A DNA stretch of 21,280 nt, taken from a virus. Below are positions 3,645-16,824 of the stretch, one piece after another. Every line of letters starts with the position of its first letter. The first letter of the stretch is position 1. A program made the translations under genes and the position numbers. The notes beneath the pieces were generated by a model, which worked only from the letters and a program-made list of their open reading frames with translations, did no database searches and had not been told where the DNA came from. The DNA lies in the IMG/VR virus record IMGVR_UViG_3300000116_000299, positions 1-21,280 of that record; one strand, given 5' to 3'.

Positions 3645-6011
3645 TTATGCTGGGAATGTTGCTCCAGTTGGTAATACATTAAAATCTAGTATTACAAATT
3701 CAGCTGTTTTCGTTGGTTGTAAAAATATCTGACCTACTAATTCATTCCTATCTATTGTTGTTGGTGTATTATTAGTATCATCCATTACTACTTTAAAAGC
3801 ATACAATCCTTGTCTTTGTTGAACTCCTTCTAAATAAGGATTAACTACACTTAAGAAATTGTTTCTTGTTGCTATTGTATTTTGTTCAAATACTAAACCA
3901 TCAGCTACACCTGAAATAAATCCTTTAAGAGATATTAACAATCTACGTACATTTACTCTATCTAAAGCACTAGCACGTTTTTGTAATGTTTTCTGACCAA
4001 ATACAACTACTCCACTTTGTGGGAATGTTGCAAGTGGGTTAACATTTGCTTCATATAAAGTATCTCTATTAGTTGCAGATAATTTTCTTTCAGCTCTAAC
4101 TACTTGACCTAAAGCTCCTCTAGTTAATCCAGCGGGTGCAAACCATGGTTCGCTTGAAGCATCTGTAAATACATACACTCCTGGGATTACTGTTGAAGCT
4201 GGTGAGTAAACTAATTCTCCAGTTTGTGGATCTATCATTTGAACCCATGGCCAATAAGTTGCAGCATAACTGTTATCAAAAGCAGAAGCTGCTTGTGAAA
4301 CTGATGAAATTGAACTACCATATTTTACTAAATCTAGTACAGCAATTGCATCACCTCTTTGGATTGTATTTGATAATAAAGCTGTTGTTTGAGTTGCGTG
4401 AGTTGCGTTAAGTAACCCAGGAGCACTAATAACATTATATTGGTATTCATCTACATTTCCTAATAGAGCAATTGCGTTAGTATAATTACTACCAGTTAAT
4501 CCTTGTGTATCAAATGCAGCACCATCTCCTATGTTTCCATAAAAATTAGCAACACGTCCTGAAGTGGCTGTTGTTATATTTTCTCCACCTGCCCCATTAA
4601 ATGAACCAGAAGCTACTGCTGGTAAAGAACCTGTAAATTCTGATTTTGCTTGACCATTATTATCAAAATAATTTGGTGTTTTTAAATTTACTGATTTTAC
4701 TCTTACATATCTTGATAGATTAGCATATGATCCTGATTCTTGGATAAAGTAATCTGCTCCCTCATTAACTAAGTTTTTATTAATATCACCAATTTGTGCT
4801 GATATATAATTTGGTTGGTATGGGTCTAGTGATAGGTTATTATATTGTTCTAATACTACTTGTTGGTTTGTATTATCATTACCTCTACGGATAAGTAAAC
4901 TAAATGTTCCCGAGGCTGTATTTACTGAGGGAATTGACCAACGAACATTTTCTGCAGATCCAGTTGCTAAGGCACCTCCTGATAATTCAGTTGTTCCAGT
5001 ATTCATTACTGCTCCTTCAGAAATTGTTTCAAGTACAAATGGTGAATTACCATCTGCTAAATCAGCTGCTGTTAAAGTAATAACAGCTGTATCAGCATTT
5101 AATTCACTAGCTGTAAGAGTTAATTCAAGTGTTCCTGTTCCTGCTCCTACTGTTGCTAATAAAGCATCTTGGGATAATGAAAGTGTAGTTCCAGCTTTTA
5201 ATCCTTCTCCTTTTCCTGATACGGTTGCTATAACATTTGTTATAAGATCACTAGCAACAGTAATTTCAACTTGAACACCTGTAACTCCTGCTGCTCCTGT
5301 TCCTCCTACTATTAAATCTGTAGCTGCTGTTGCTCCTTGAGTAAATGTATAATCTCCATCATTTGCAGCTGTTGCGGCATCAAAAGTATTTGTACTAACA
5401 GCACCAAAAATTGTAGTTGCAATTAAAGGTGAACCACCATTATCGTTAGAAGAAAATGTAATTGTATCTCCTACTTCATATCCATTCCCTGCAGCTGAAG
5501 CTGTAACAGCAGTAACAACACCTGCGTTTGTAACTAAGTTAAATGTAGCACCTGTACCACTACCATTTGCTGTAAATGTAGCACCTGTATAAGTTACTTC
5601 ACCTGATCCCGTAAAAGCAGTACTATTTGTTGTTATAGAATTAAATAAAGTGCCTGCATTTGAGTCACCTGTTTTTAAAGCCGAACCATCTACTGTACTA
5701 ATAAATGAACTTGTAGCAGAAGTAAATGTTTCTGGAGTTACCCTAGTTACTAATAAACTGGTTCCACCACTTTGAAAATAATTATTAGCTGCTAATGAAG
5801 TCAAATATGAATAAGCAACTGATGCACTTTGTACGGTAGTACCAAAAATTGCTGTATATTCACTAAAAGAAGTAACCAGTGTAGGTACTTCAACAGGTCC
5901 TAAAGCAGCTGGTCCTATAATAGCAGCACCAATTTCCGCTGGTTGTTGAGTAATAAATGATTGGTCGTTTTCTCTAGCTAATACACCTGGAGATAATAAT
6001 GTTTCTGCCAT
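3645..6011 (-). CDS. gp18: Tail sheath protein gp18 with an added beta-rich insertion
   Basis: A 788-residue protein; T4 gp18 is 659. The N-terminus (LLSPGVLARENDQS, then GAAIIGPAALGPVEVPTLV) and the C-terminal domain (RRLLISLKGFISGVADGLVFEQN at about 689-711, then QIFLQPTKTAEFVILDF) are classic contractile sheath features. The C-terminal domain builds the inner sheath layer around the tube, and the protein contracts to drive the tube into the cell. Residues about 140-315 are a Gly/Thr/Ala-rich beta insertion with repeated GAGTG- and GNGY-GDT-type turns, probably exposed on the outside. It lies between the 83-residue gene and gp19, and its promoter-like element at 6035-6051 is the most distant from its ATG (29 bases). 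Confidence 0.95.
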   Translation of the reverse strand: MAETLLSPGVLARENDQSFITQQPAEIGAAIIGPAALGPVEVPTLVTSFSEYTAIFGTTVQSASVAYSYLTSLAANNYFQSGGTSLLVTRVTPETFTSATSSFISTVDGSALKTGDSNAGTLFNSITTNSTAFTGSGEVTYTGATFTANGSGTGATFNLVTNAGVVTAVTASAAGNGYEVGDTITFSSNDNGGSPLIATTIFGAVSTNTFDAATAANDGDYTFTQGATAATDLIVGGTGAAGVTGVQVEITVASDLITNVIATVSGKGEGLKAGTTLSLSQDALLATVGAGTGTLELTLTASELNADTAVITLTAADLADGNSPFVLETISEGAVMNTGTTELSGGALATGSAENVRWSIPSVNTASGTFSLLIRRGNDNTNQQVVLEQYNNLSLDPYQPNYISAQIGDINKNLVNEGADYFIQESGSYANLSRYVRVKSVNLKTPNYFDNNGQAKSEFTGSLPAVASGSFNGAGGENITTATSGRVANFYGNIGDGAAFDTQGLTGSNYTNAIALLGNVDEYQYNVISAPGLLNATHATQTTALLSNTIQRGDAIAVLDLVKYGSSISSVSQAASAFDNSYAATYWPWVQMIDPQTGELVYSPASTVIPGVYVFTDASSEPWFAPAGLTRGALGQVVRAERKLSATNRDTLYEANVNPLATFPQSGVVVFGQKTLQKRASALDRVNVRRLLISLKGFISGVADGLVFEQNTIATRNNFLSVVNPYLEGVQQRQGLYAFKVVMDDTNNTPTTIDRNELVGQIFLQPTKTAEFVILDFNVLPTGATFPA

Positions 6012-6069: not shown

Positions 6070-6321
6070 CTATTCTGATTTAATGAATTCTCCTTTTTCT
6101 AAATCAATATTACCTTCTCCATATTTTTCTTGTAATTCTTTACCTGCTTTTTCTTGGTCCTGGAGGAGTGATTGGTATTGGTTTTGAAGATTTTGTTTAT
6201 CTCTTTCTAAAAATACTTTTCTTAATTCAATTTGACCTAAGGAAAAAGTAATTTCATTTTCTGATCTTTGAAAATTTCTTAATTGTTGTAACTCTTCTGT
6301 TGATAACTTTAGTGTACTCAT
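6070..6321 (-). CDS. Small coiled-coil protein, unknown function
   Basis: An 83-residue hydrophilic protein, with a Gln/Glu/Lys/Leu heptad-like pattern over roughly residues 8-67 and an acidic end GNIDLEKGEFIKSE. I do not recognise a characterised family, although similar short coiled-coil proteins occur among T4-like structural genes. It is clearly expressed as a unit: it has its own late-promoter-like element 12 bases before the ATG, lies directly upstream of the sheath gene, and has no Shine-Dalgarno, like its neighbours. A role as a virion or tail-assembly component or scaffold is possible but is inferred only from location. No signal peptide, membrane segment or catalytic motif is visible. 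Confidence 0.7.
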   Translation of the reverse strand: MSTLKLSTEELQQLRNFQRSENEITFSLGQIELRKVFLERDKQNLQNQYQSLLQDQEKAGKELQEKYGEGNIDLEKGEFIKSE

Positions 6322-6326
6322 TTTTT

Positions 6327-6344
6327 ATTTTGTTTATAAATATT
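6327..6344 (-). promoter_or_regulatory. Late-promoter-like element at the end of the accessory island
   Basis: The coding strand reads AATATTTATAAACAAAAT, one A longer than consensus. It overlaps the stop codon of the reductase gene (6343-6345), so the structural unit restarts exactly where the island ends. Confidence 0.55.
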
Positions 6345-7077
6345 AATAAAATTCTTTTAATGCAATTATTTGTTCTTTTAATGGTAATGTTTTTATTGTC
6401 CCTACTAAACATTTATTAAATACAGGAATATCAATAGGGTTAATAATAATATTTTTATTATATACTTCTTTTAATAAAGAAAGCAATTCATATTTAGATA
6501 CACATTCTCCCTCTAATATATTTTCTGTAGGTAATTCATTCCAATGAAACATTAAATATAAACAGTACTGTGCCCAGGTTAAAGTAGAATTACCATTCCA
6601 ATAATATTCAGAATACCCATTTATTTTACCTTCTTGTGATAAAAACCATTCCATTAAGCTTGCCTTAGTATTTAACTCAGGCCCAAATATTGATGTTTTA
6701 ATAATTTTTGTATTTTTAGCCTCTTCTTTAATCCATTCAGCTGCTATTCTTTTAGAATTACCATAATCATCATTATCCATTTCACAATCAGTTCCTGGGT
6801 GTATAATTCGGGGTTGATGGTTTTCAATATATTTAGATGCATTTGTTTCTAACCATTTAGGTAACTCCCAATTTATTTGAAAATCTGTTGTTCTTTGGTG
6901 TATAGCTCCTATACAATTAATAATATAGGCACCATCAAAATTTTGTACTGATTGTTTAAAACAAGTTGAGGGCCACCTGCAATCTGCAATGGTTATACAT
7001 TCTATTCCTTTACTTTCAAAAAATTTATGGACCATATGTCCTAACATTCCTTTATGTCCTAATATTAATACTTTCAT
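6343..7077 (-). CDS. RmlD-type sugar-nucleotide reductase (SDR family)
   Basis: A 244-residue short-chain dehydrogenase. The N-terminal GHKGMLGH (G7, G10, G13) is the Rossmann NAD(P)-binding glycine motif. HPGTDC at 93-98 corresponds to the STDC-type active-site strand of RmlD, and YGNSK (Y105, K109) is the catalytic Tyr-x3-Lys. The family reduces 4-keto-6-deoxy nucleotide sugars; relatives are RmlD (dTDP-rhamnose) and the reductase domain of WbjC/CapF/FnlB (L-FucNAc pathway). The length fits a reductase without the C-terminal cupin domain of CapF. Its ATG overlaps the TGA of the dehydratase gene (ATGA), indicating translational coupling and a two-step pathway. Predicted substrate: the 4-keto product of the upstream enzyme. 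The exact sugar cannot be told from sequence. Confidence 0.82.
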   Translation of the reverse strand: MKVLILGHKGMLGHMVHKFFESKGIECITIADCRWPSTCFKQSVQNFDGAYIINCIGAIHQRTTDFQINWELPKWLETNASKYIENHQPRIIHPGTDCEMDNDDYGNSKRIAAEWIKEEAKNTKIIKTSIFGPELNTKASLMEWFLSQEGKINGYSEYYWNGNSTLTWAQYCLYLMFHWNELPTENILEGECVSKYELLSLLKEVYNKNIIINPIDIPVFNKCLVGTIKTLPLKEQIIALKEFY

Positions 7078-8015
7078 GGTTTAAAATAATTATAACAATT
7101 TAAAATTTTAGTTAATTCTTCTTTAGATACACACACCTTATCACTTGTAAATTCTTCATTTATACAACGATCAGCTATAGGTACAGTGTCTTTATAATGC
7201 ATATAAAATGTATTTTCATCAAATTCATAATGAGTTCTAGGTGTTTCTTCATTTGAAATCATCATTTCATGGAGTTTTTCTGAAATTCTAGGTTTACCTA
7301 TTGTATATTTAAGGTTAAATTTTTCTTGATATATTTCAAATAAATCTTTTACTCTAAATGATTTTAAATTAGGGATAATATTATATCCACTAGTTTGAAG
7401 TCCTAATTCAATTAAGTCCATTGCTTCCTCTATATTAATCATAAAACGAGTCATTTCTTCTGAATACAAAGTAAGTGGGTAGTTTTTATTAATAGAATCC
7501 CATATTAATGGGATTATACTACCAGTTGAATTTAATACATTTCCGTATACTGCTGTAGATAATTTAACATTTGATTTTTCAGCATTTACTATAAATGACT
7601 CTCCTGCTACAAATTTCATTGCACCATATAATGTAGTAGCTGCTCTGGATTTATCTGAAGATATAAAACACGCTGCTTTAAAATTATTTTCTTCAGCTGC
7701 TCTTCTTGAATTAAGAGCTCCATCTACTAATACTCTAACACTTTCTTCTACATTTTGGTCTACGGCACCTATTTGTTTTAATGAAGCAGCAAATATACCA
7801 ATATCATGCCCAGCAGATGCTCTTTTCAATAAATCAAAATTACGTATATCTCCAATAATACAGTTTATATTTGGAAATTCTTGTTTTAAATAATAATGTT
7901 TTGCTTCATCCCTGCTGTAGATAGTAATTTTATTATCTTTATAATAACGTCTAACTAGATTTTTACCTAAAAACCCAGCCCCTCCAGTTATAAATATTTT
8001 TTTATTTTTAATCAT
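7074..8015 (-). CDS. UDP-GlcNAc 4,6-dehydratase/5-epimerase-like enzyme (FnlA/WbjB/CapE type)
   Basis: A 313-residue extended SDR protein. GGAGFLG at 11-17 binds NAD(P); SSDKS at 119-123 holds the characteristic Ser-Asp-Lys of the CapD/PseB/WbjB group; YGAMK (Y130, K134) is the catalytic Tyr-x3-Lys; EMTRFMI at 187-193 and EKLHEMMIS in the C-terminal third are substrate-domain signatures of this family. These enzymes convert UDP-GlcNAc to a 4-keto-6-deoxy sugar, PseB and the WbjB/FnlA group with C5 inversion. Followed by a RmlD-type reductase in coupled overlap, it would supply a 6-deoxy-N-acetylhexosamine donor such as an L-talo/L-fuco derivative. The usual third enzyme, a C2 epimerase (FnlC/WbjD), is not in the window. 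Distinguishing FnlA-like from PseB-like needs a phylogeny. Confidence 0.88.
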   Translation of the reverse strand: MIKNKKIFITGGAGFLGKNLVRRYYKDNKITIYSRDEAKHYYLKQEFPNINCIIGDIRNFDLLKRASAGHDIGIFAASLKQIGAVDQNVEESVRVLVDGALNSRRAAEENNFKAACFISSDKSRAATTLYGAMKFVAGESFIVNAEKSNVKLSTAVYGNVLNSTGSIIPLIWDSINKNYPLTLYSEEMTRFMINIEEAMDLIELGLQTSGYNIIPNLKSFRVKDLFEIYQEKFNLKYTIGKPRISEKLHEMMISNEETPRTHYEFDENTFYMHYKDTVPIADRCINEEFTSDKVCVSKEELTKILNCYNYFKP

Positions 8016-8964
8016 TAGTATCTATAGATGTTGTTCTTTTTTCCTTAAATATATAAGTTAGGTCAATGTACGAATCATTTAACCAATACCCAAATGAATT
8101 TATTTCTGAATATTTTATGTTAAAAAATGGATCTGTTATTAAAATTTCTTTATTATTAATATTTATTTTTAGATCTTCTTGTATATCATAAATTAAAATA
8201 GAAGGTTCTGTTTTATAGACTTTAGAATCTGTAACACTTTGGTAAAATAATTTAAACAAATCATTATCTTTATTAAAATTGAAAGCATCCTGAAAGTCTA
8301 TATACATAATTTGGTCTTTAACTACTTCAGGATAAACTTCATAATTAAATACAGATATTAAATGTCCTAAATAAGTTTCAGCATCCTTAAAATCCTGATG
8401 TTCTGTAGTAATTGACCCAGCAATGTATTGTTCTTTTGAAATTAAAGGGAGTAATTTTTTTAAATTTTTTTTACTTAAGATATTAAACATAAAACTAGGA
8501 AACCTAAAACCCTTTTCGTTTTCTTTAGCATAAACTTTACTAGTAATAAAATCTTGAGGTGATTTTAAAGTTTCAAATATTAAAGGTGTAAGTATAGTAT
8601 CATAATTAATAAAACTATATTGGTCATAATCTAAAGATAACCCTAAATGGCTTGAAGTTAAAAATTGGTTAAAAGCAGTCCACCCATAATCTGGGAGAAT
8701 GTTAACTAGATCATAACTTTCTTGATCTAATGTAATAGTTTTCCAATATACCATTCCTCTTTGGGGCCAGTGTAGTATAGGATTACTTTTATCATATATA
8801 AAATATTCTATTTGAGATTGAATACTTTTAGGTAAAGGAACATGGGATGTGAGTAATATATCAAAACCATTAGATTTTAATTGTTTAATATTATCATCTA
8901 ATATGTTAATTTTTTCTTCAGTGTCACAATGACTTAAAATTATTATTAAATTTTTATTTGTCAT
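8008..8964 (-). CDS. Putative glycosyltransferase (viral-type GT-A-like)
   Basis: A 318-residue protein that begins with a beta-strand and IIILSHCDTEEKINIL, then a nucleotide-binding-like alternation (IKQLKSNGFDILLTSHVPLP, then FIYDKSNPIL). This start is familiar from a group of glycosyltransferase-like proteins in phages, giant viruses and some polysaccharide clusters. An INYD at about 119-122 could serve as the DxD-like metal site, but a canonical DxD is not clear. It overlaps the large glycoenzyme gene by 11 bases and the dehydratase gene by 8 bases, so it is translated as part of the same island. The likely role is sugar transfer using the donor made by the downstream dehydratase and reductase. 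Donor, acceptor and linkage are unknown. Confidence 0.68.
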   Translation of the reverse strand: MTNKNLIIILSHCDTEEKINILDDNIKQLKSNGFDILLTSHVPLPKSIQSQIEYFIYDKSNPILHWPQRGMVYWKTITLDQESYDLVNILPDYGWTAFNQFLTSSHLGLSLDYDQYSFINYDTILTPLIFETLKSPQDFITSKVYAKENEKGFRFPSFMFNILSKKNLKKLLPLISKEQYIAGSITTEHQDFKDAETYLGHLISVFNYEVYPEVVKDQIMYIDFQDAFNFNKDNDLFKLFYQSVTDSKVYKTEPSILIYDIQEDLKININNKEILITDPFFNIKYSEINSFGYWLNDSYIDLTYIFKEKRTTSIDTND

Positions 8965-11900
8965 AACATGCGATATAAGGGGTTATGTCTTTATTTTTAT
9001 CATACCTAGTAATAGATTCATACTCTATATAATTGGTATCAGAATTACTTTTAAACCAATCACCATTTTTAGTTAATAATTGGTTAATAATAGGCTGTTC
9101 TGATTTGTATAATTTTAGAATTTCTAATTTTTTATCTAAGATATCTTGAGGCAATTTTATATTTGATTTACTAAACACATAAAAATCTTTAGTTGATCTT
9201 ATTATAGATTCAAAAATTGCTTTATGTTGGGGGTGACCATATTCCCCTATGGGGTTATGTGTAACAATTTTTTTCCAACTTTTAGAAATTAAAATAGAAT
9301 GCAAATCAAATCCTTCAGTAAAATTTAATTTATCTTCATAATCTAACATTTCCCAAGAACCAACATTTAATTCTTTCATTACATTTTCAAATTCTTTACT
9401 TCGAATTTTATTTGATTTATTAGTTAAACAAATAACTTTATATTCAGGGCCATGTTTTATTAGTTCTGCTCCCCCAAATATTAGTTCATCATCAGGGTGT
9501 GCTACTATCATTAATTTATTTATTTGATAATCTTTGAAAGCTTTTAATAATGTATTAGCATTTTTATTTTTAACAGAAGGATCAGGACCATGAATAAAAT
9601 AGGGTTCAAAATTATGTTCATTATACATAACATCAAATCCCTGATTGAGAAAATAATTATCTACTTTTTTTTCTTCAATACTGCTATAATAGTTATTCCA
9701 AGTAACAGGAAGATATTCTTGTTTATTTTCTTCCCATAAAATATTATTTGCTACTCTCTCTTCAGAAAATGCATTATCATCAACATATACTTTTACATTA
9801 TAATTATTTAATTCTTTATTCCATTTTAAACACTTTTCAAAAAATGCTTTACTATTTTTGTTATAAAAGTAAAAACCAGTTGCTATAATTCTTCGGTTAG
9901 GATTTCTAGTTAGATTTTTAATGGAAGCTAATTCACTACCATAATTTCCTTCTAATTTTATGTTATTATAATATCTCCATTGATTAATATCTTCATGGAA
10001 ATACCTCATAAATAAAGGATAATCTTTTAAATTATTTAAATATTTTAAAGATTTATCTATATTTTCAGTTACAAAAGCATCTCCATCAACCCAAGCAAAA
10101 CTATTATAATTTTCATTTAAAGAATCTAAACTTGCTAAATATTTAGCAAAGTAAATAGAATAATCTTTATTGAATAAATCAGGTTCATTAGAAGATTGAA
10201 CTGTAGGTTTAGGTCTATAATTTATTCTTTTATTTATTACATTAGGTAAATTAATATTAGAATCACAATTAAACCCATATACTATTAATTTATGTTTAGA
10301 ATACTTTAATAAACTTTCAGCTAATACTTTTATCATAGGAAGATAAGATTCATTACCTCCTGTTATCCACACAAAATTATCGTTTTTTTTTGGATTAAAA
10401 TAATTTATAACTTCACTATAAACCTGGTCTACTGTAATTGATTTTTGGCATATATGTTGTAAATCTGTTCCTTGATGTTCGCCACACCAATCCCAATCAC
10501 CTGCATCAAATACTAATTCTTTACTTACCCAACAATTATTACATACACTATGGTTTTCTATTTTAGTTAAGTTATGAGTAAATTCATACCCATAAGGAAT
10601 AAAATTATTAATCATTACAGTATGTTTATCTAATACCCAATTTACCCAGGATAAACCAGATCCTAATCCTATAAATAAATCTGCATGATATAAATGGTTT
10701 AGAGTATCTTCCCATTTTAAATTTTTCTTATCTACTATATTTGTTCCTTTAAATCCCTCTTTAGATAAATTAACTACTTTATATCCTTTACTATGTAACT
10801 TTTTTGCTAATTTTTTCCAATTTTCATAAGGCCATTCTTTTAACCCAGCTGTTGATTTAGGACCAATGCAAATATATTTACCTTTTATAGGTCTTTTTTT
10901 AGGGGTGAATTTAATACCATAGTGTAATTCTTTATAGGGTAAGCCTAAAATATCAGATGCTGCTTGAATTAATGGAATTGTATTTACTTGGGTTGGATGA
11001 TTGTTAAAATTTTTCCACCCTCCATCTTCATCTCTAAACCAACCTATTTCATATATAGCATAGGCATTATATACAGACCCAGGGTTTATAAATGTTAAAT
11101 CTTTGTATTCTGGAAGTGTTTCAAACCAATTATTATGGTAAGTACTCACAATAACTTCACATTTATGTTTTTTATAAAATTCTAAAACTTGAGGTATCCA
11201 TGCTATTGTATCCCCAATTGATTTAGATTCAAAGTTAATCCTAACTTTTTTTCCTCCCAGATTAAATTTATGAACAACTTTACCATTTATTTTAATTATC
11301 CAAGGAATGTGATAACTTTTACTACATTTAGTCCACATATTATTACTTATGGTATCACTATGTATAACTTCATTAGTATTACCATCTATAAACTCAACAA
11401 AATATTTATTCTTATGATGTCCTAATACTTCTACTTTTGGGCCCTTATCAAAACTTACTTCTACCTTATTTTTAGGTAAATTATCTAATAAATTTTCTAT
11501 TTCTTTGCCTGCTATTTTAGCAGCATTTTCCCAAGTAAACTTTTCTCTAATTATTTTAGATTCTTCTAATGCTTTTTGTTTATGATGTTTATAATTTTCA
11601 TAAGCATCTCTCATTACCTTTTTTAAATGGTCAAAATCAGGTTCATAAAATTCCCCCGCTAATAAAGATTGAGAAAAACTACTATATTCCCCTAGTTTTG
11701 CTTCTGATGTAGATTTTATATTTACAGGTAACCCTAGTCCCTCTGCAAATTCTAATTGGGCGCTACAGTTAGAATATATTGATGGGGTACCACATGCCAT
11801 AGCTTCAATTAGGGGTAAATTCCATCCCTCAGCTCTAGCACAGGATAAAAATACATGACCTTTTTGTAAATAATTTATATATTCTTCTCTGGTAGGGAAA

Positions 11901-12676
11901 TGTTTTATTTTGATCCTGGGGTCATTTAATTTGTAATGTTTTAATCTATCTTCGGTTGATTTAAATTTATCTTGAGCATATGGGTTATCAATTGATACTA
12001 TTAAATCAATGGGTTCATCTTCATTAAACTCCTGTAGGAAAGATTCTATTACTTCTTTTGTTGCTTTTCTATAGTCCCATCTACCAAATAAAACAAATTT
12101 AAATCTTTTATCACTATATTCAGGTAAAGTAACTTGTGAATTTGGTCTAAATGTAAGTCCATCTACAGCTTCGGGTACTACTTTTACTTTAGTAGGATCA
12201 ATACCTTGCTCAATTGTGCAGTCCCTTTGCCATTTTGAGGCAACCCAAACCTGGTCAAATGTTTTTAATTGGTTAAAAAACTCTTCTGGTTGTCTTGTAG
12301 ACTCCCAAACATTATATGCTATCTTAGGACCATCGTAATTTTGATAAAAGAAATGATGATTTGTTTCATTTAAAACTATATTTACATTATGATCAAAACT
12401 ATTAGGGTAATTATTATAAAAAGATTTATGAATTAAGTTATCCCCTTCCCAAAGAGATTGTTCAACTAATAATTTTTTATCTAAACCATCAATATAATCT
12501 TCTCCATTATGGGGTTCTTCATTATGTCCTTCCCATGATTTACCTACAGTATAATTCCTAACCCTTAAATCATAAAGATTAGAAAGTTCTCTATAAAATG
12601 CTCTTGTATGGTTATTGTAACCCGTAGTTCCTATATAACTACCATGTGCAAAAATTTTAGGTTTTTGTTCTAGCAT
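8954..12676 (-). CDS. Four-domain glycoenzyme: GT4 + iron/Cys GT9 + GT-A + PIG-L deacetylase
   Basis: A single 1240-residue frame. Residues 1-400 are a GT4 (GT-B) transferase with FGRWDYRKA at 197-205 and the E-x7-E region ending in EAMACGTP at 291-298. Residues 410-475 are a beta-rich linker. Residues 475-760 are a GT9 heptosyltransferase-like domain (SIGDTIAWIP, then GPKSTAGLKEWP at 605-616) with cysteines 712, 715, 731 and 743, resembling the iron-binding cysteines of TibC-type autotransporter heptosyltransferases. Residues 765-1050 look like a GT-A domain with a DGD (864-866) metal motif. Residues 1052-1240 are a PIG-L/LmbE deacetylase with AHPDDE (1059-1064) and GHPQH (1147-1151); H1060, D1063 and H1151 are the expected zinc ligands. 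The key residues of all four units are present, so each may be active. It overlaps both neighbouring genes. It probably assembles and trims a glycan on a protein or lipid acceptor. Confidence 0.88.
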   Translation of the reverse strand: MLEQKPKIFAHGSYIGTTGYNNHTRAFYRELSNLYDLRVRNYTVGKSWEGHNEEPHNGEDYIDGLDKKLLVEQSLWEGDNLIHKSFYNNYPNSFDHNVNIVLNETNHHFFYQNYDGPKIAYNVWESTRQPEEFFNQLKTFDQVWVASKWQRDCTIEQGIDPTKVKVVPEAVDGLTFRPNSQVTLPEYSDKRFKFVLFGRWDYRKATKEVIESFLQEFNEDEPIDLIVSIDNPYAQDKFKSTEDRLKHYKLNDPRIKIKHFPTREEYINYLQKGHVFLSCARAEGWNLPLIEAMACGTPSIYSNCSAQLEFAEGLGLPVNIKSTSEAKLGEYSSFSQSLLAGEFYEPDFDHLKKVMRDAYENYKHHKQKALEESKIIREKFTWENAAKIAGKEIENLLDNLPKNKVEVSFDKGPKVEVLGHHKNKYFVEFIDGNTNEVIHSDTISNNMWTKCSKSYHIPWIIKINGKVVHKFNLGGKKVRINFESKSIGDTIAWIPQVLEFYKKHKCEVIVSTYHNNWFETLPEYKDLTFINPGSVYNAYAIYEIGWFRDEDGGWKNFNNHPTQVNTIPLIQAASDILGLPYKELHYGIKFTPKKRPIKGKYICIGPKSTAGLKEWPYENWKKLAKKLHSKGYKVVNLSKEGFKGTNIVDKKNLKWEDTLNHLYHADLFIGLGSGLSWVNWVLDKHTVMINNFIPYGYEFTHNLTKIENHSVCNNCWVSKELVFDAGDWDWCGEHQGTDLQHICQKSITVDQVYSEVINYFNPKKNDNFVWITGGNESYLPMIKVLAESLLKYSKHKLIVYGFNCDSNINLPNVINKRINYRPKPTVQSSNEPDLFNKDYSIYFAKYLASLDSLNENYNSFAWVDGDAFVTENIDKSLKYLNNLKDYPLFMRYFHEDINQWRYYNNIKLEGNYGSELASIKNLTRNPNRRIIATGFYFYNKNSKAFFEKCLKWNKELNNYNVKVYVDDNAFSEERVANNILWEENKQEYLPVTWNNYYSSIEEKKVDNYFLNQGFDVMYNEHNFEPYFIHGPDPSVKNKNANTLLKAFKDYQINKLMIVAHPDDELIFGGAELIKHGPEYKVICLTNKSNKIRSKEFENVMKELNVGSWEMLDYEDKLNFTEGFDLHSILISKSWKKIVTHNPIGEYGHPQHKAIFESIIRSTKDFYVFSKSNIKLPQDILDKKLEILKLYKSEQPIINQLLTKNGDWFKSNSDTNYIEYESITRYDKNKDITPYIACYDK

Positions 12677-12875
12677 TTACCCCAAATTTACTAAATTTAT
12701 ACCAAATTCTTTCGTGGAGGAAATATAATACCATTTTAGTAATAACTTCTACACCTCCTATAGCTAAACCTAATTCCCACGATCCTGTAATTAATCCAGA
12801 GAGAACTATTGTATCAATAGTGCCAATAATTCTCCAAGATATGGTTTTAGCAATGTGTCTTTTATAGCTTACCAT
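12657..12875 (-). CDS. DUF2061 small membrane protein
   Basis: A 72-residue protein with the DUF2061 signature: KTISWRIIGTIDT near the N-terminus, a hydrophobic hairpin (VLSGLITGSWELGLAIGG), then VEVITKMVLYFLHERIWYK. Two membrane segments are likely, at about residues 19-32 and 35-54. The biochemical function of the family is unknown, but in bacteria it is often encoded next to sulfate-activation genes such as cysC/cysD/cysN. Here too an APS-kinase-like gene lies three genes upstream, so the association is repeated in a phage. It overlaps the nucleotidyltransferase gene by 14 bases and the large glycoenzyme gene by 20 bases. Its product would sit in the host inner membrane. Confidence 0.87.
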   Translation of the reverse strand: MVSYKRHIAKTISWRIIGTIDTIVLSGLITGSWELGLAIGGVEVITKMVLYFLHERIWYKFSKFGVNARTKT

Positions 12876-13260
12876 CTTCTTTCATTTTAGCTCTAATTTT
12901 AGTTGCAGATACTTCTCTTATCTCATCTGGTGGTACGTGTTCTATTATATCGTAACCTACTCCTCGTCCTATATTAATAGATTCGATATCAGGAAGAATA
13001 GCTATAGCTATCCTACCTTCTTCTATTAAATCTTTTAATTCAATTTTAAGGTTAGCTTCAACTTCTTGAGCAGTCCATGGGTTTTTTGTATCGGGTTCAA
13101 TATCTCTAATACATATTAATATGTTTTTCCCGTCATTTAAACGCTGGTCTATTAACCATCTATGTCCCTTATGCCATGGTTGCCATCTACCGATATACAT
13201 TGAATATTTTACTTCACTATCTGAAGATTTAAATGAGGCTTGTGCTAGGTATTTTTTCAT
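12862..13260 (-). CDS. HxGH-family nucleotidyltransferase
   Basis: A 132-residue protein with the nucleotidyltransferase fold of the cytidylyltransferase/NMNAT group: GRWQPWHKGH (HxGH at H30-H33) for triphosphate binding, NPWTAQEVE in the middle, and SATKIR at 118-123, the equivalent of the ISSTxIR motif. Such enzymes join a phosphorylated small molecule to an NMP from CTP or ATP and release pyrophosphate. The start codon overlaps the stop of the HAD gene (ATGA). It lies with a kinase-like and a phosphatase-like gene, which suggests making an activated CDP- or AMP-linked intermediate for the glycan genes downstream. The substrate cannot be deduced. Motif spacing fits NMNAT/GCT-like proteins rather than ATP sulfurylase. 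Confidence 0.85.
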   Translation of the reverse strand: MKKYLAQASFKSSDSEVKYSMYIGRWQPWHKGHRWLIDQRLNDGKNILICIRDIEPDTKNPWTAQEVEANLKIELKDLIEEGRIAIAILPDIESINIGRGVGYDIIEHVPPDEIREVSATKIRAKMKEDGKL

Positions 13261-13595
13261 ATTCCTTTATCTCTTTCTAAATTAATTGCTATTGCTCTTT
13301 CTCCTGGATTATTTGGGTCCATATCGTTAATTAAATAACGAGGTCCTCTTTCAATCCCCATAATTAATCTATGGTAAGGTACTTCGTTTTCATATAATTC
13401 TACTTCAGTATGTACCCTTAAATATTCAGGGCGAGCTGTAGTTAGAATTATCATATGTCCTTCATTTACTGCTCTATCTAAATATTCTATGGTGGACTCT
13501 ATACCTTCAGCTTTAGAAGTCTCGTATGTTTCAAATTGACGGTATTTTAGAATAGTACCATCTATATCACAAAAATATGTATTTTTTTTCTCCAT
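13257..13595 (-). CDS. HAD-superfamily phosphatase-like protein
   Basis: A 112-residue minimal HAD domain. Motif I is CDIDGTI (D10, D12), the nucleophile and acid/base aspartates; motif II is LTTARP at 51-56; the C-terminal motif is RYLINDMDP with D91 and D93 for Mg2+. There is no large cap domain, so it resembles small capless HAD proteins such as polynucleotide-kinase-phosphatase-like or sugar-phosphate phosphatases. It starts one base after the end of the APS-kinase-like frame and overlaps the nucleotidyltransferase start, so it is translated with both. It probably removes or edits a phosphate on the same small-molecule intermediate. The Gly-Pro-Arg after motif II gives a conserved-looking basic residue (R86) in the usual motif III region. 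Confidence 0.8.
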   Translation of the reverse strand: MEKKNTYFCDIDGTILKYRQFETYETSKAEGIESTIEYLDRAVNEGHMIILTTARPEYLRVHTEVELYENEVPYHRLIMGIERGPRYLINDMDPNNPGERAIAINLERDKGI

Positions 13596-13596
13596 A

Positions 13597-14109
13597 TTAA
13601 TTGTCTAATTGGTAATCTGAAGGTGGTAGTTCATTTAGTAAAGACCCTTCAGGGTATTTTTTATCTAAACCAATTTTTTTAGCTATTATATCTAATGATT
13701 CTTCCGGTGTTTGATTTGTTGTATCTACATCAGTATAATCAAAGTCTGGTTTTTGGAATTGGGATACGTGGTAATTTTCTCTACCCCTAAGTCCTTTATC
13801 TAAATTGTAATGTACAAAAATTTCATGTAATTGCCACTTCATTATGTCTTTAAATTCTTCTCTTTGGTCTAAGTAAGGAGAAACTAAAGATACAATAACA
13901 TCTTTACCTTGATTATGTAAATAATGAGCTATTTTTTGGGCGGCATCTACATTAGTTATTCTACCTTTTATAGAATAATCTTTATTTGTAAATAATTCTC
14001 TCATTTCATCCCCATCTATTCGATAAGCATGTGGGAGGTATTTTTCTTTAAGCATGTTTGCTAATACAGTCTTCCCAGAACAGGGTTGACCCGTAAACCA
14101 ATATATCAT
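13597..14109 (-). CDS. Adenylylsulfate kinase-like P-loop kinase (CysC-like)
   Basis: A 170-residue protein with a Walker A motif GQPCSGKT (7-14), IDGDEMRELF at 31-40 (typical of APS kinase and relatives), then GRITNVDAAQKIAHYLHNQGKD and VSLVSPYLDQREEF, corresponding to the SPY/F-R-R/D-x-R-E segment of CysC. APS kinase phosphorylates adenylylsulfate to PAPS, the donor for sulfotransferases. The typical GLSGSGKS is replaced by GQPCSGKT and the last 50 residues diverge, so a different small-molecule kinase activity is possible. It is the first gene of the accessory island and follows gp15 after a 52-base gap. Neither an ATP sulfurylase nor a sulfotransferase gene is visible in the window. The DUF2061 gene downstream supports a sulfate link. 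Confidence 0.78.
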   Translation of the reverse strand: MIYWFTGQPCSGKTVLANMLKEKYLPHAYRIDGDEMRELFTNKDYSIKGRITNVDAAQKIAHYLHNQGKDVIVSLVSPYLDQREEFKDIMKWQLHEIFVHYNLDKGLRGRENYHVSQFQKPDFDYTDVDTTNQTPEESLDIIAKKIGLDKKYPEGSLLNELPPSDYQLDN

Positions 14110-14161
14110 ATAACGTTATTTTTATAACCATAATGTATGTAACTAATTTAACTAATCCAAA
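14110..14161 (-). promoter_or_regulatory. Junction between gp15 and the accessory island
   Basis: A 52-base AT-rich gap with no terminator. On the coding strand it contains GTTATAAAAATAAC, a perfect 5-base inverted repeat with a 4-base loop, followed by the palindrome ATAACGTTAT next to the ATG of the kinase gene. The TTATAAAAATA resembles the late element only loosely. It may be a weak promoter or a junction scar; I cannot decide. Confidence 0.3.
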
Positions 14162-15085
14162 CTATTCTTCTCTAGTTTGACCACCAGGAAAAGTTCTAAT
14201 TCCAGGTTTAAATGTATCAACATTACTGGTGGTTTCAAAATTAATTGTAACTTTAGATTTGCTATTCCATTTATTAATTGAATTCATTTCTTTCTGGATA
14301 GTGTCGGGTATAATATAACCTCTTAACTGTATATTAAATGTACCCTTTACTAATCTATCCTTACCCGTTGTTAATTCAGTTGCTGTTGTAAACTGATCTA
14401 TAAAAGCTCTAAATTTAAATCTTTCAGGATTACCCCAATAAGCATCAGAGGCATACTCACAAGCTTCAATAATTTTATTTAACTGTTCCATATAATAAGT
14501 TTGAATAATACAACTATATTCTAAAGTAACAAAATCGGGAACAGCAACCGCATAATGTTCTTTTACTGCTTTTTTATTGTTTAATACCGAAAAATTATTA
14601 TAAAAATTATTAGGGCTATATTTTTTCTGGAATGAACTATATAGGTTTACCCCATTAGCATCTAATTTATTATAAACAGATCTATCTTTTGCTATTGAAT
14701 CTCTTTTTACAACAATAATAGGTAACATTATAGCACCTTTTTTATCTCTATAATAACCATCCCTTTGAAATGATTTCCACCTTTCGGGAGATCCATAAAT
14801 TATAGGTACATTTCTTCTTTCACCATTTTGATATACAAAAGGCTTAATAACTTCTTTAAAGTAATAAAATACAGCTTCATCTAAATCTTGAAGACCAATA
14901 GAAAAAGGTTTAGTACTATCATCTTTAAAACTTAATTTAGTTGATCTATTAAAATCAATTCCCGTTTCTGATTCATTTGGATTAATACGAGCATTAGGAT
15001 TACCTCTTTCAGTATCAAAAGCAGTTTGCTGTTCAACACTTAATTCTCTTTGGGTTTTTGGTATTGGTTTTCTAATTTTACTCAT
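14162..15085 (-). CDS. gp15: gp15-like tail completion / sheath terminator protein
   Basis: A 307-residue protein with a hydrophilic N-terminus, then an alpha/beta core: DEAVFYYFKEVIKPFVY, RNVPIIYGSPERW (T4 gp15 has a comparable V-PI-YAS segment), GAIMLPIIVVKRDS, then DFVTLEYSCIIQTYYMEQLNKIIE and LVKGTFNIQLRGYIIP. This order matches T4 gp15 (272 residues), which caps the sheath and tube and joins the tail to the neck. It directly follows gp14, sharing the A of TAATG, as in the T4 order 13-14-15. In T4 it is followed by terminase genes 16 and 17, but here by the accessory island. Weak sequence similarity makes the call dependent on order as well as motif layout. Confidence 0.75.
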   Translation of the reverse strand: MSKIRKPIPKTQRELSVEQQTAFDTERGNPNARINPNESETGIDFNRSTKLSFKDDSTKPFSIGLQDLDEAVFYYFKEVIKPFVYQNGERRNVPIIYGSPERWKSFQRDGYYRDKKGAIMLPIIVVKRDSIAKDRSVYNKLDANGVNLYSSFQKKYSPNNFYNNFSVLNNKKAVKEHYAVAVPDFVTLEYSCIIQTYYMEQLNKIIEACEYASDAYWGNPERFKFRAFIDQFTTATELTTGKDRLVKGTFNIQLRGYIIPDTIQKEMNSINKWNSKSKVTINFETTSNVDTFKPGIRTFPGGQTREE

Positions 15086-16781: not shown

Positions 16782-16798
16782 GTTTTGTTATAAATATG
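16782..16798 (-). promoter_or_regulatory. Late-promoter-like element before gp13
   Basis: The coding strand reads CATATTTATAACAAAAC, starting within 6 bases of the preceding terminator stem and with TATAA 13 bases before the gp13 ATG. As the only clear element upstream of 14109, it would also drive the accessory island. Confidence 0.6.
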
Positions 16799-16824
16799 AA
16801 AAAAAGGACTCATATTGAGTCCTT
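16797..16824 (-). terminator. Intrinsic terminator between the 150-residue protein and gp13
   Basis: AAGGACTCA-TAT-TGAGTCCTT forms a perfect nine-pair stem with a three-base loop. On the coding strand the stem is followed by a T-run that merges into the gp13 promoter element. A T-rich stretch on the other side (16825-16834) means it could also work in the opposite direction. Confidence 0.85.

Follow-up and report, generated by a model that had tools for sequence, protein, structure and literature searches.

Gene content of the slot between gp15 and gp18

The IMG/VR viral record IMGVR_UViG_3300000116_000299, whose entire 21,280 bp form the window analysed here, comes from a T4-like virus and carries, between the virion genes gp15 and gp18, an island of eight minus-strand open reading frames (ORFs; 14109-6343) with predicted sugar-modifying and small-molecule-activating products. 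That this island is mobile, mosaic cargo at a recombination hotspot between gp15 and gp18 of T4-like, presumably Bacteroidota-infecting phages is well supported; its role would be, with a probability of roughly 0.5, to glycosylate and in some cases also sulfate fibre or tail proteins of the virion in the cytosol. The position and variability of the island, the families and conserved catalytic residues of its proteins and two promoter-like classes around it are directly established.

Every real gene of the window is encoded by the minus strand. The order runs gp22-like, gp23, PhoH, two small structural-type genes, gp13, gp14, gp15 and the island, followed by a small ORF (6321-6070), gp18, gp19, gp26 and the tape measure gene. 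The closest cultured relatives are Flavobacterium phage immuto (53% identity in gp18, 56% in gp23) and Microcystis phage Mel-JY01, from which we infer a Bacteroidota, Flavobacteria-type host. Both share with the window the synteny gp13-14-15-small ORF-gp18-gp19 and differ from it in the slot. Fibre and lysozyme genes occupy this slot in immuto; Mel-JY01 has next to nothing there and encodes a fusion of a family 4 glycosyltransferase (GT4) with a TibC-type domain elsewhere in its genome. The slot and its genes are as follows.

14162-15085, minus strand: gp15, left edge of the slot, placed by synteny with immuto
13597-14109, minus strand: P-loop kinase resembling adenosine 5'-phosphosulfate (APS) kinase, 170 aa, first island gene (PF01583, 62 bits)
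13257-13595, minus strand: small HAD phosphatase, 112 aa, with a DIDGT motif (PF08282, PF25109, phrog_1238/415)
12862-13260, minus strand: NMNAT-type nucleotidyltransferase (NTase), 132 aa (NMNAT models, PDB 2qjo)
12657-12875, minus strand: DUF2061 small membrane protein, 72 aa (PF09834, 80.5 bits)
8954-12676, minus strand: 1240-aa fusion protein (PF00534, TIGR04414, TibC structure 4rap, PF02585)
8008-8964, minus strand: GT-A-fold glycosyltransferase (GT), 318 aa (GT-A matches; AlphaFold2 (AF2) model with a predicted local distance difference test score (pLDDT) of 86)
7074-8015, minus strand: PseB/FlaA1-type 4,6-dehydratase of nucleoside diphosphate (NDP)-N-acetylhexosamine (HexNAc), 313 aa (PF02719, 147 bits; PDB 4tqg, 2gn4)
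6343-7077, minus strand: RmlD-like reductase, 244 aa (weak PF04321 match, 16.5 bits, below the cut-off)
6070-6321, minus strand: small conserved ORF, right edge of the slot, found at this edge in most relatives
3645-6011, minus strand: gp18 tail sheath

The island begins 52 nt after the end of gp15 (14162) and stops 21 nt short of the next ORF (start 6321), beyond which lies gp18. The tight eight-gene block described between gp15 and gp18 in an earlier note on this DNA is thus present, with spacings of +1, -4, -14, -20, -11, -8 and -4 nt in order; its single gap is 1 nt and its overlaps measure 4-20 nt.

Exchange of cargo at a fixed site

The stretch from gp15 to the small ORF or gp18 was mapped in about 160 IMG/VR loci around relatives of gp18 and gp15, a set of related rather than independent contigs; set beside about 120 related viral contigs, the site proves to be a true hotspot. 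In about 25 loci (e.g., L021, L069, L079 and L130) the slot is of an empty type, only 53-300 bp long; in L018-L027 it measures 2.2 kb and holds a GT4 gene and a TibC-type gene. The clade of the window (gp15 86-99%) has 3.3-8.2 kb of sugar cargo there, and much of the 70-77% clade has a long fibre-type array with collagen-like GSSGTSG repeats and products of up to 2744 aa; behind this array come genes for GTs, sulfotransferases and the kinase cassette. Within the window clade every locus with a complete slot keeps the GT4-TibC fusion and a GT of the 318-aa type; the kinase cassette and the HAD, PIG-L, PseB and RmlD genes or domains vary. In L088 and L090, for example, the neighbouring genes are the same and the difference is a clean 1-kb block of kinase, NTase and DUF2061. 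Moreover, kinase identity is 91% in L122, where gp15 reaches just 73%, and 60% in L005, where gp15 reaches 89%; these contrasts suggest that the modules move independently of the phage backbone. Checked for presence, absence and exchange in relatives, the cargo is therefore variable and not core, as the earlier note had expected, and its description as exchangeable, modular glycosylation cargo is well supported. In one contig (L008:1-10000) the island and gp15 are interrupted by several small frameshifts, probably assembly errors.

The same note had placed the island where T4 has its terminase genes 16 and 17. We reject a replacement of the terminase, which lies elsewhere in relatives: in immuto it precedes gp20, in Mel-JY01 it is found upstream of gp20 and the capsid genes, and in a 120-kb relative with a complete island (G001) it is located at 68,973, again upstream of gp20. 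Relatives with an empty slot likewise have no terminase here.

Glycan enzymes of the island

The 1240-aa protein combines a GT4 domain (residues ~1-400), a domain of the TibC/Aah O-heptosyltransferase type (404-756), a GT-A-like domain with a DGD motif (~765-1045) and a PIG-L deacetylase (1055-1156) that retains the HPDDE motif. Residues 404-756 match positions 11-371 of the 374 in TIGR04414 with 197.6 bits (cut-off 200), as well as the TibC structure 4rap (E 5.6e-33). The catalytic Asp110 of TibC, the residue mutated to obtain the ligand-bound structure, and the iron-finger residues Cys339/342/358/370, whose mutation abolishes heptosylation (PMC4358343), are all aligned and identical in the phage domain. 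Enzymes of this family modify proteins, transferring heptose onto autotransporters (PMC4358343). The phage domain resembles the TibC/Aah heptosyltransferases (BAHT) in the beta-barrel and GT9-type catalytic domain as in Asp110 and the four cysteines, and differs from them in its fusion to GT4, GT-A and PIG-L domains, in a score just under the equivalog cut-off and in the lack of a visible autotransporter or SLS-repeat target in 13 related contigs. A scan of genome contigs returned no relatives of the 1240-aa protein, and a search of 296 genomes for a bacterial source of the TIGR04414 domain gave two partial, weak matches, neither convincing.

The 318-aa protein has no Pfam match; its AF2 model adopts the GT-A fold, with structural matches that include the PBCV-1 GT and LH3. 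Among viral proteins, the closest structural match comes from a phage, as a UniProt entry already named Aah/TibC glycosyltransferase. In a 735-kb metagenomic phage (LR756501, 580171-583528) homologues of the TibC-type domain and the 318-aa GT lie 1.3 kb apart. Relatives of the window reshuffle the GT4-TibC, GT-A, PIG-L and 318-aa GT domains in different fusions (L005, L012 and L096), which links these domains to one pathway. As for sugar synthesis, the PseB-like protein has the SDK (SSDK) and YxxxK (YGAMK) catalytic residues, its substrate being unassignable at a TIGR03589 score of 171 bits against an equivalog cut-off of 407.75; the RmlD-like protein carries GxxGxxG and YGNSK motifs.

The same inventory bears on what might be glycosylated. 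Enzymes such as these could alter the O-antigen or capsule of the host during infection and so block superinfection or keep progeny from being lost on debris. Surface polysaccharide loci typically contain NDP-sugar genes, GTs and sulfotransferases, and an early-type promoter element on the island (see below) would suit such a role. Family and hydropathy scans of the island proteins, however, found no flippase, polymerase, ligase, membrane GT or other Gtr membrane protein, hydrophobic segments being confined to DUF2061; TibC-type enzymes act on proteins, and fibre genes share the slot. We therefore consider remodelling of the host surface unlikely. Hypermodification of phage DNA is very improbable: phage GTs often act on DNA according to literature cited in PMC12619734, but the island has no nucleotide-modifying gene and the central domain of the fusion belongs to a protein O-glycosyltransferase family.

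The kinase-HAD-NTase-DUF2061 cassette

The first four genes form a mobile cassette that most likely, judging from its motifs and gene associations, resembles a system for activating sulfate as 3'-phosphoadenosine 5'-phosphosulfate (PAPS). The kinase also matches 21 solved APS kinases, and its P-loop, DGDxxR and SPY...R motifs are conserved in nine aligned phage kinases; with 60 bits against a TIGR00455 cut-off of 138.7, we do not claim it as a true APS kinase (CysC). The HAD protein resembles the 3'-phosphatase domain of PNKP, and the NTase has GRWQPWHKGH and SATKIR motifs. Kinase is followed by NTase in 65/65 non-redundant viral loci, with the HAD gene between them in 30; a fusion of the two exists in PHROG 10255, and DUF2061 lies downstream of the pair in 49 of 62 viral loci. 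Sulfotransferase is the commonest family among the upstream neighbours; 10/29 kinase-bearing contigs encode one, as against 0/21 that lack the kinase (nominal Fisher p 0.002, the contigs being related). In Bacteroidota genomes, 57 of 80 DUF2061 loci have cysN next to the gene, and bacterial homologues also adjoin cysC and cysD. The phage cassette is therefore comparable to the cysQ-DUF2061-cysC-cysD-cysN loci of Bacteroidota in that an APS-kinase-type gene adjoins DUF2061; it differs in having an NMNAT-like NTase for CysD/CysN and a HAD protein for CysQ, replacements that are hypothetical. No convincing bacterial source of the NTase was found among 395 Bacteroidota genomes, and an AF2 prediction of the NTase made without an alignment reached a pLDDT of only 46.

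Alternatively, the cassette might make NAD-type cofactors or another group activated on a 3'-phosphonucleotide, unconnected with the glycan genes. Campylobacter phosphoramidate synthesis, for instance, uses an APS-kinase-like enzyme. The NTase matches NMNATs best, the canonical C-terminal APS-binding motif of the kinase (FTGIDSPYE type) is not recognisable in an alignment with 7yq0, and in five isolate phages relatives of the NTase lie, where inspected, near DNA-metabolism genes. Together with the 2OG-oxygenase (2-oxoglutarate) and DUF1599 genes that also occur beside the cassette, these last neighbours imply that it may not concern sulfate. Set against this are the APS-kinase motifs that the kinase retains and the association with sulfotransferases and DUF2061, which leave a non-sulfate role as an appreciable possibility at less than even odds.

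A DUF7936 gene is inserted either ahead of the kinase or where fibre loci end (L012:1477-1785, L326:2608-2916), and in 21 of 23 cases it has a late-type box of its own.

Promoter-like elements

Two classes of promoter-like element bear on the expression of the island, as follows.

16804-16824, minus strand: terminator-like hairpin before the gp13 box
16789-16796, minus strand: late-type box before gp13
14125-14172, minus strand: early-type (host sigma-A-like) promoter candidate, TTTGG-N20-TACATTA, conserved in the leaders of the clade
8058-8105, minus strand: internal early-type promoter candidate inside the GT-A gene, 42 nt upstream of the PseB start
6335-6342, minus strand: late-type box (TATTTATA on the coding strand), adjoining the RmlD stop and before ORF 6321

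Read along the coding strand, the late-type box is TATTTATAA(T/C)AAAA, which corresponds to the T4 late octamer in reverse complement. The octamer itself, TATAAATA, has ten matches in the window, all on the plus strand, and is no commoner than chance (7.7 expected); no T4-type late promoter of this sequence precedes late genes on the coding strand. The box lies 13-22 nt before the starts of gp13, gp19, ORF 6321 and the two small structural-type genes, and its position before the start codon is conserved in relatives (92/97 for gp13, 94/95 for gp19). It is shared by immuto and is a feature of the whole group (immuto, the window and its relatives). In relatives it is absent before the island genes, namely the kinase (0/25), fusion (0/40), 318-aa GT (0/32), NTase (0/13), DUF2061 (0/24) and PseB (0/9), with RmlD (5/14) as the exception. 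The late element that the earlier note saw at the island stop codon is real insofar as a box abuts the RmlD stop, but the octamer TATAAATA sits there on the plus strand only.

The second class, TTTGG-N20-TTCGTATATT, is similar to TAnnTTTG, the sigma-A consensus of flavobacteria (PMC9723704), and is conserved in the gap between gp15 and the island and before PseB (TTTGG-N20-TAYATTA). Bacteroidota sigma-A promoters have two boxes, TTTG and TAnnTTTG, and the candidate in the island leader pairs two boxes spaced by roughly 20 nt. In most of the clade loci checked, the leader between gp15 and the island was the top coding-strand hit of a position weight matrix (PWM) trained on 19 such sites outside the island, and in all of them it ranked among the top four; empty and most fibre-type slots scored far lower. 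The PseB-upstream site scores 11.7 bits in the window and 12-27 in window-clade relatives with PseB; it contains a rare TCG codon (2.8% of Ser codons), and protein conservation alone could explain it. Among 113 upstream regions of G001 and a second relative, G002, 37 have the late box and 21 the second class, with zero overlap. In these two genomes (L324-L335) the early-type class, as TTTGG-N20-TTCGTATATTTA, stands before small non-structural genes. A further site in the window, at 3093-3046 between gp19 and gp26, scores 13.9 with the early-type PWM, overlaps a hairpin with a T-run and may be a terminator.

It had been proposed that the island lacks an internal promoter, depends on the late promoter of gp13 as its sole driver and is expressed late, like structural genes, for virion decoration. 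In favour of this, no terminator was found between gp15 and the island, all genes are co-oriented, and late boxes stand before gp13 and directly after the island. Against it, the relatives' island genes lack the box with the exception noted for RmlD, and they conserve a different, sigma-A-like element at the head of the island and upstream of PseB, so that late-only expression is unsupported and we judge it improbable. The pattern of motifs suggests instead that the island likely has its own early-type start, and the missing terminator makes late read-through possible as well.

Proposed function of the island

Under the glycosylation reading, the PseB-like dehydratase and RmlD-like reductase, soluble in the cytosol, would produce a modified HexNAc nucleotide sugar; the GT4, the TibC-type O-glycosyltransferase and the two GT-A enzymes would build a short glycan on a protein at Ser/Thr, and PIG-L would remove acetyl from the assembled glycan. 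The small group activated by the cassette would most likely be sulfate, in the form of PAPS, and its user would be a sulfotransferase of the host or one encoded in another part of the phage genome. We prefer a protein acceptor in the cytosol because the island has no export machinery and its core enzyme is of a protein glycosyltransferase family; since the slot alternates with fibre genes, the likeliest acceptor would be a virion surface protein, either fibres with GSSGTSG repeats or exposed tail-sheath insertions. Transcription from the island's own host-sigma-type promoter, plus late read-through from gp13, would have the enzymes ready ahead of virion assembly. Sulfation and early expression are plausible additions to this glycosylation reading. 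A fuller proposal, in which kinase, HAD 3'-phosphatase, NMNAT-like adenylyltransferase and DUF2061 form a compact, phage-specific cassette for sulfate activation that works with TibC-type protein glycosylation so that fibre glycans can be sulfated, appears doubtful.

Several observations weigh against the preferred reading. The relatives counted above are not independent. The TIGR04414 score falls 2.4 bits under the equivalog cut-off, which makes heptose only a possible donor, and the acceptor repeats of TIGR04415 have no match in the 13 related contigs (mostly fragments), for which reason we file the domain as TibC-type and not as a proven member. The leader of the window itself scores a weak 3.8 bits, third best, and both promoter classes are sequence patterns. 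The window island contains no sulfotransferase. The NMNAT-like matches of the NTase, the kinase C-terminus and the mixed neighbours of the cassette count against a pure sulfate role. The earlier description of a self-contained glycosylation module accordingly holds for the glycosylation, which the TibC-type GT, two GT-A enzymes, dehydratase, reductase and deacetylase represent; self-containment is doubtful, as donor synthesis is incomplete and the closest 120-kb relative, G001, has its sulfotransferase outside the island, in a fibre region 40 kb away.

Mycobacteriophage GTs have been proposed to glycosylate virion proteins (Freeman et al. 2023, as cited in PMC12619734), a likeness to the role suggested here. 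The island differs from that system in its GT families, in forming a whole module with sugar synthesis and sulfate-type activation, and in that its virion glycans are a prediction from genes. The role of phage sulfotransferases has been termed unclear (PMC10580990). The island would bear on why tailed phages of aquatic bacteria carry many glycosyltransferases and sulfotransferases, on the diversification of virion surfaces through cargo exchange at a fixed tail-gene slot and on whether such cargo is expressed early or with the virion genes. A further point of interest is a protein glycosyltransferase of the TibC type whose acceptor, being cytosolic, could be tested; if the sulfation proposal were true, proteins would be glycosylated and sulfated by a viral system operating in the bacterial cytosol.

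In several relatives the tail sheath gene gp18 occurs in apparent adjacent tandem copies (L150:12233-16382, L067:1018-5126, L083:3906-7997 and L003:35256-40418).

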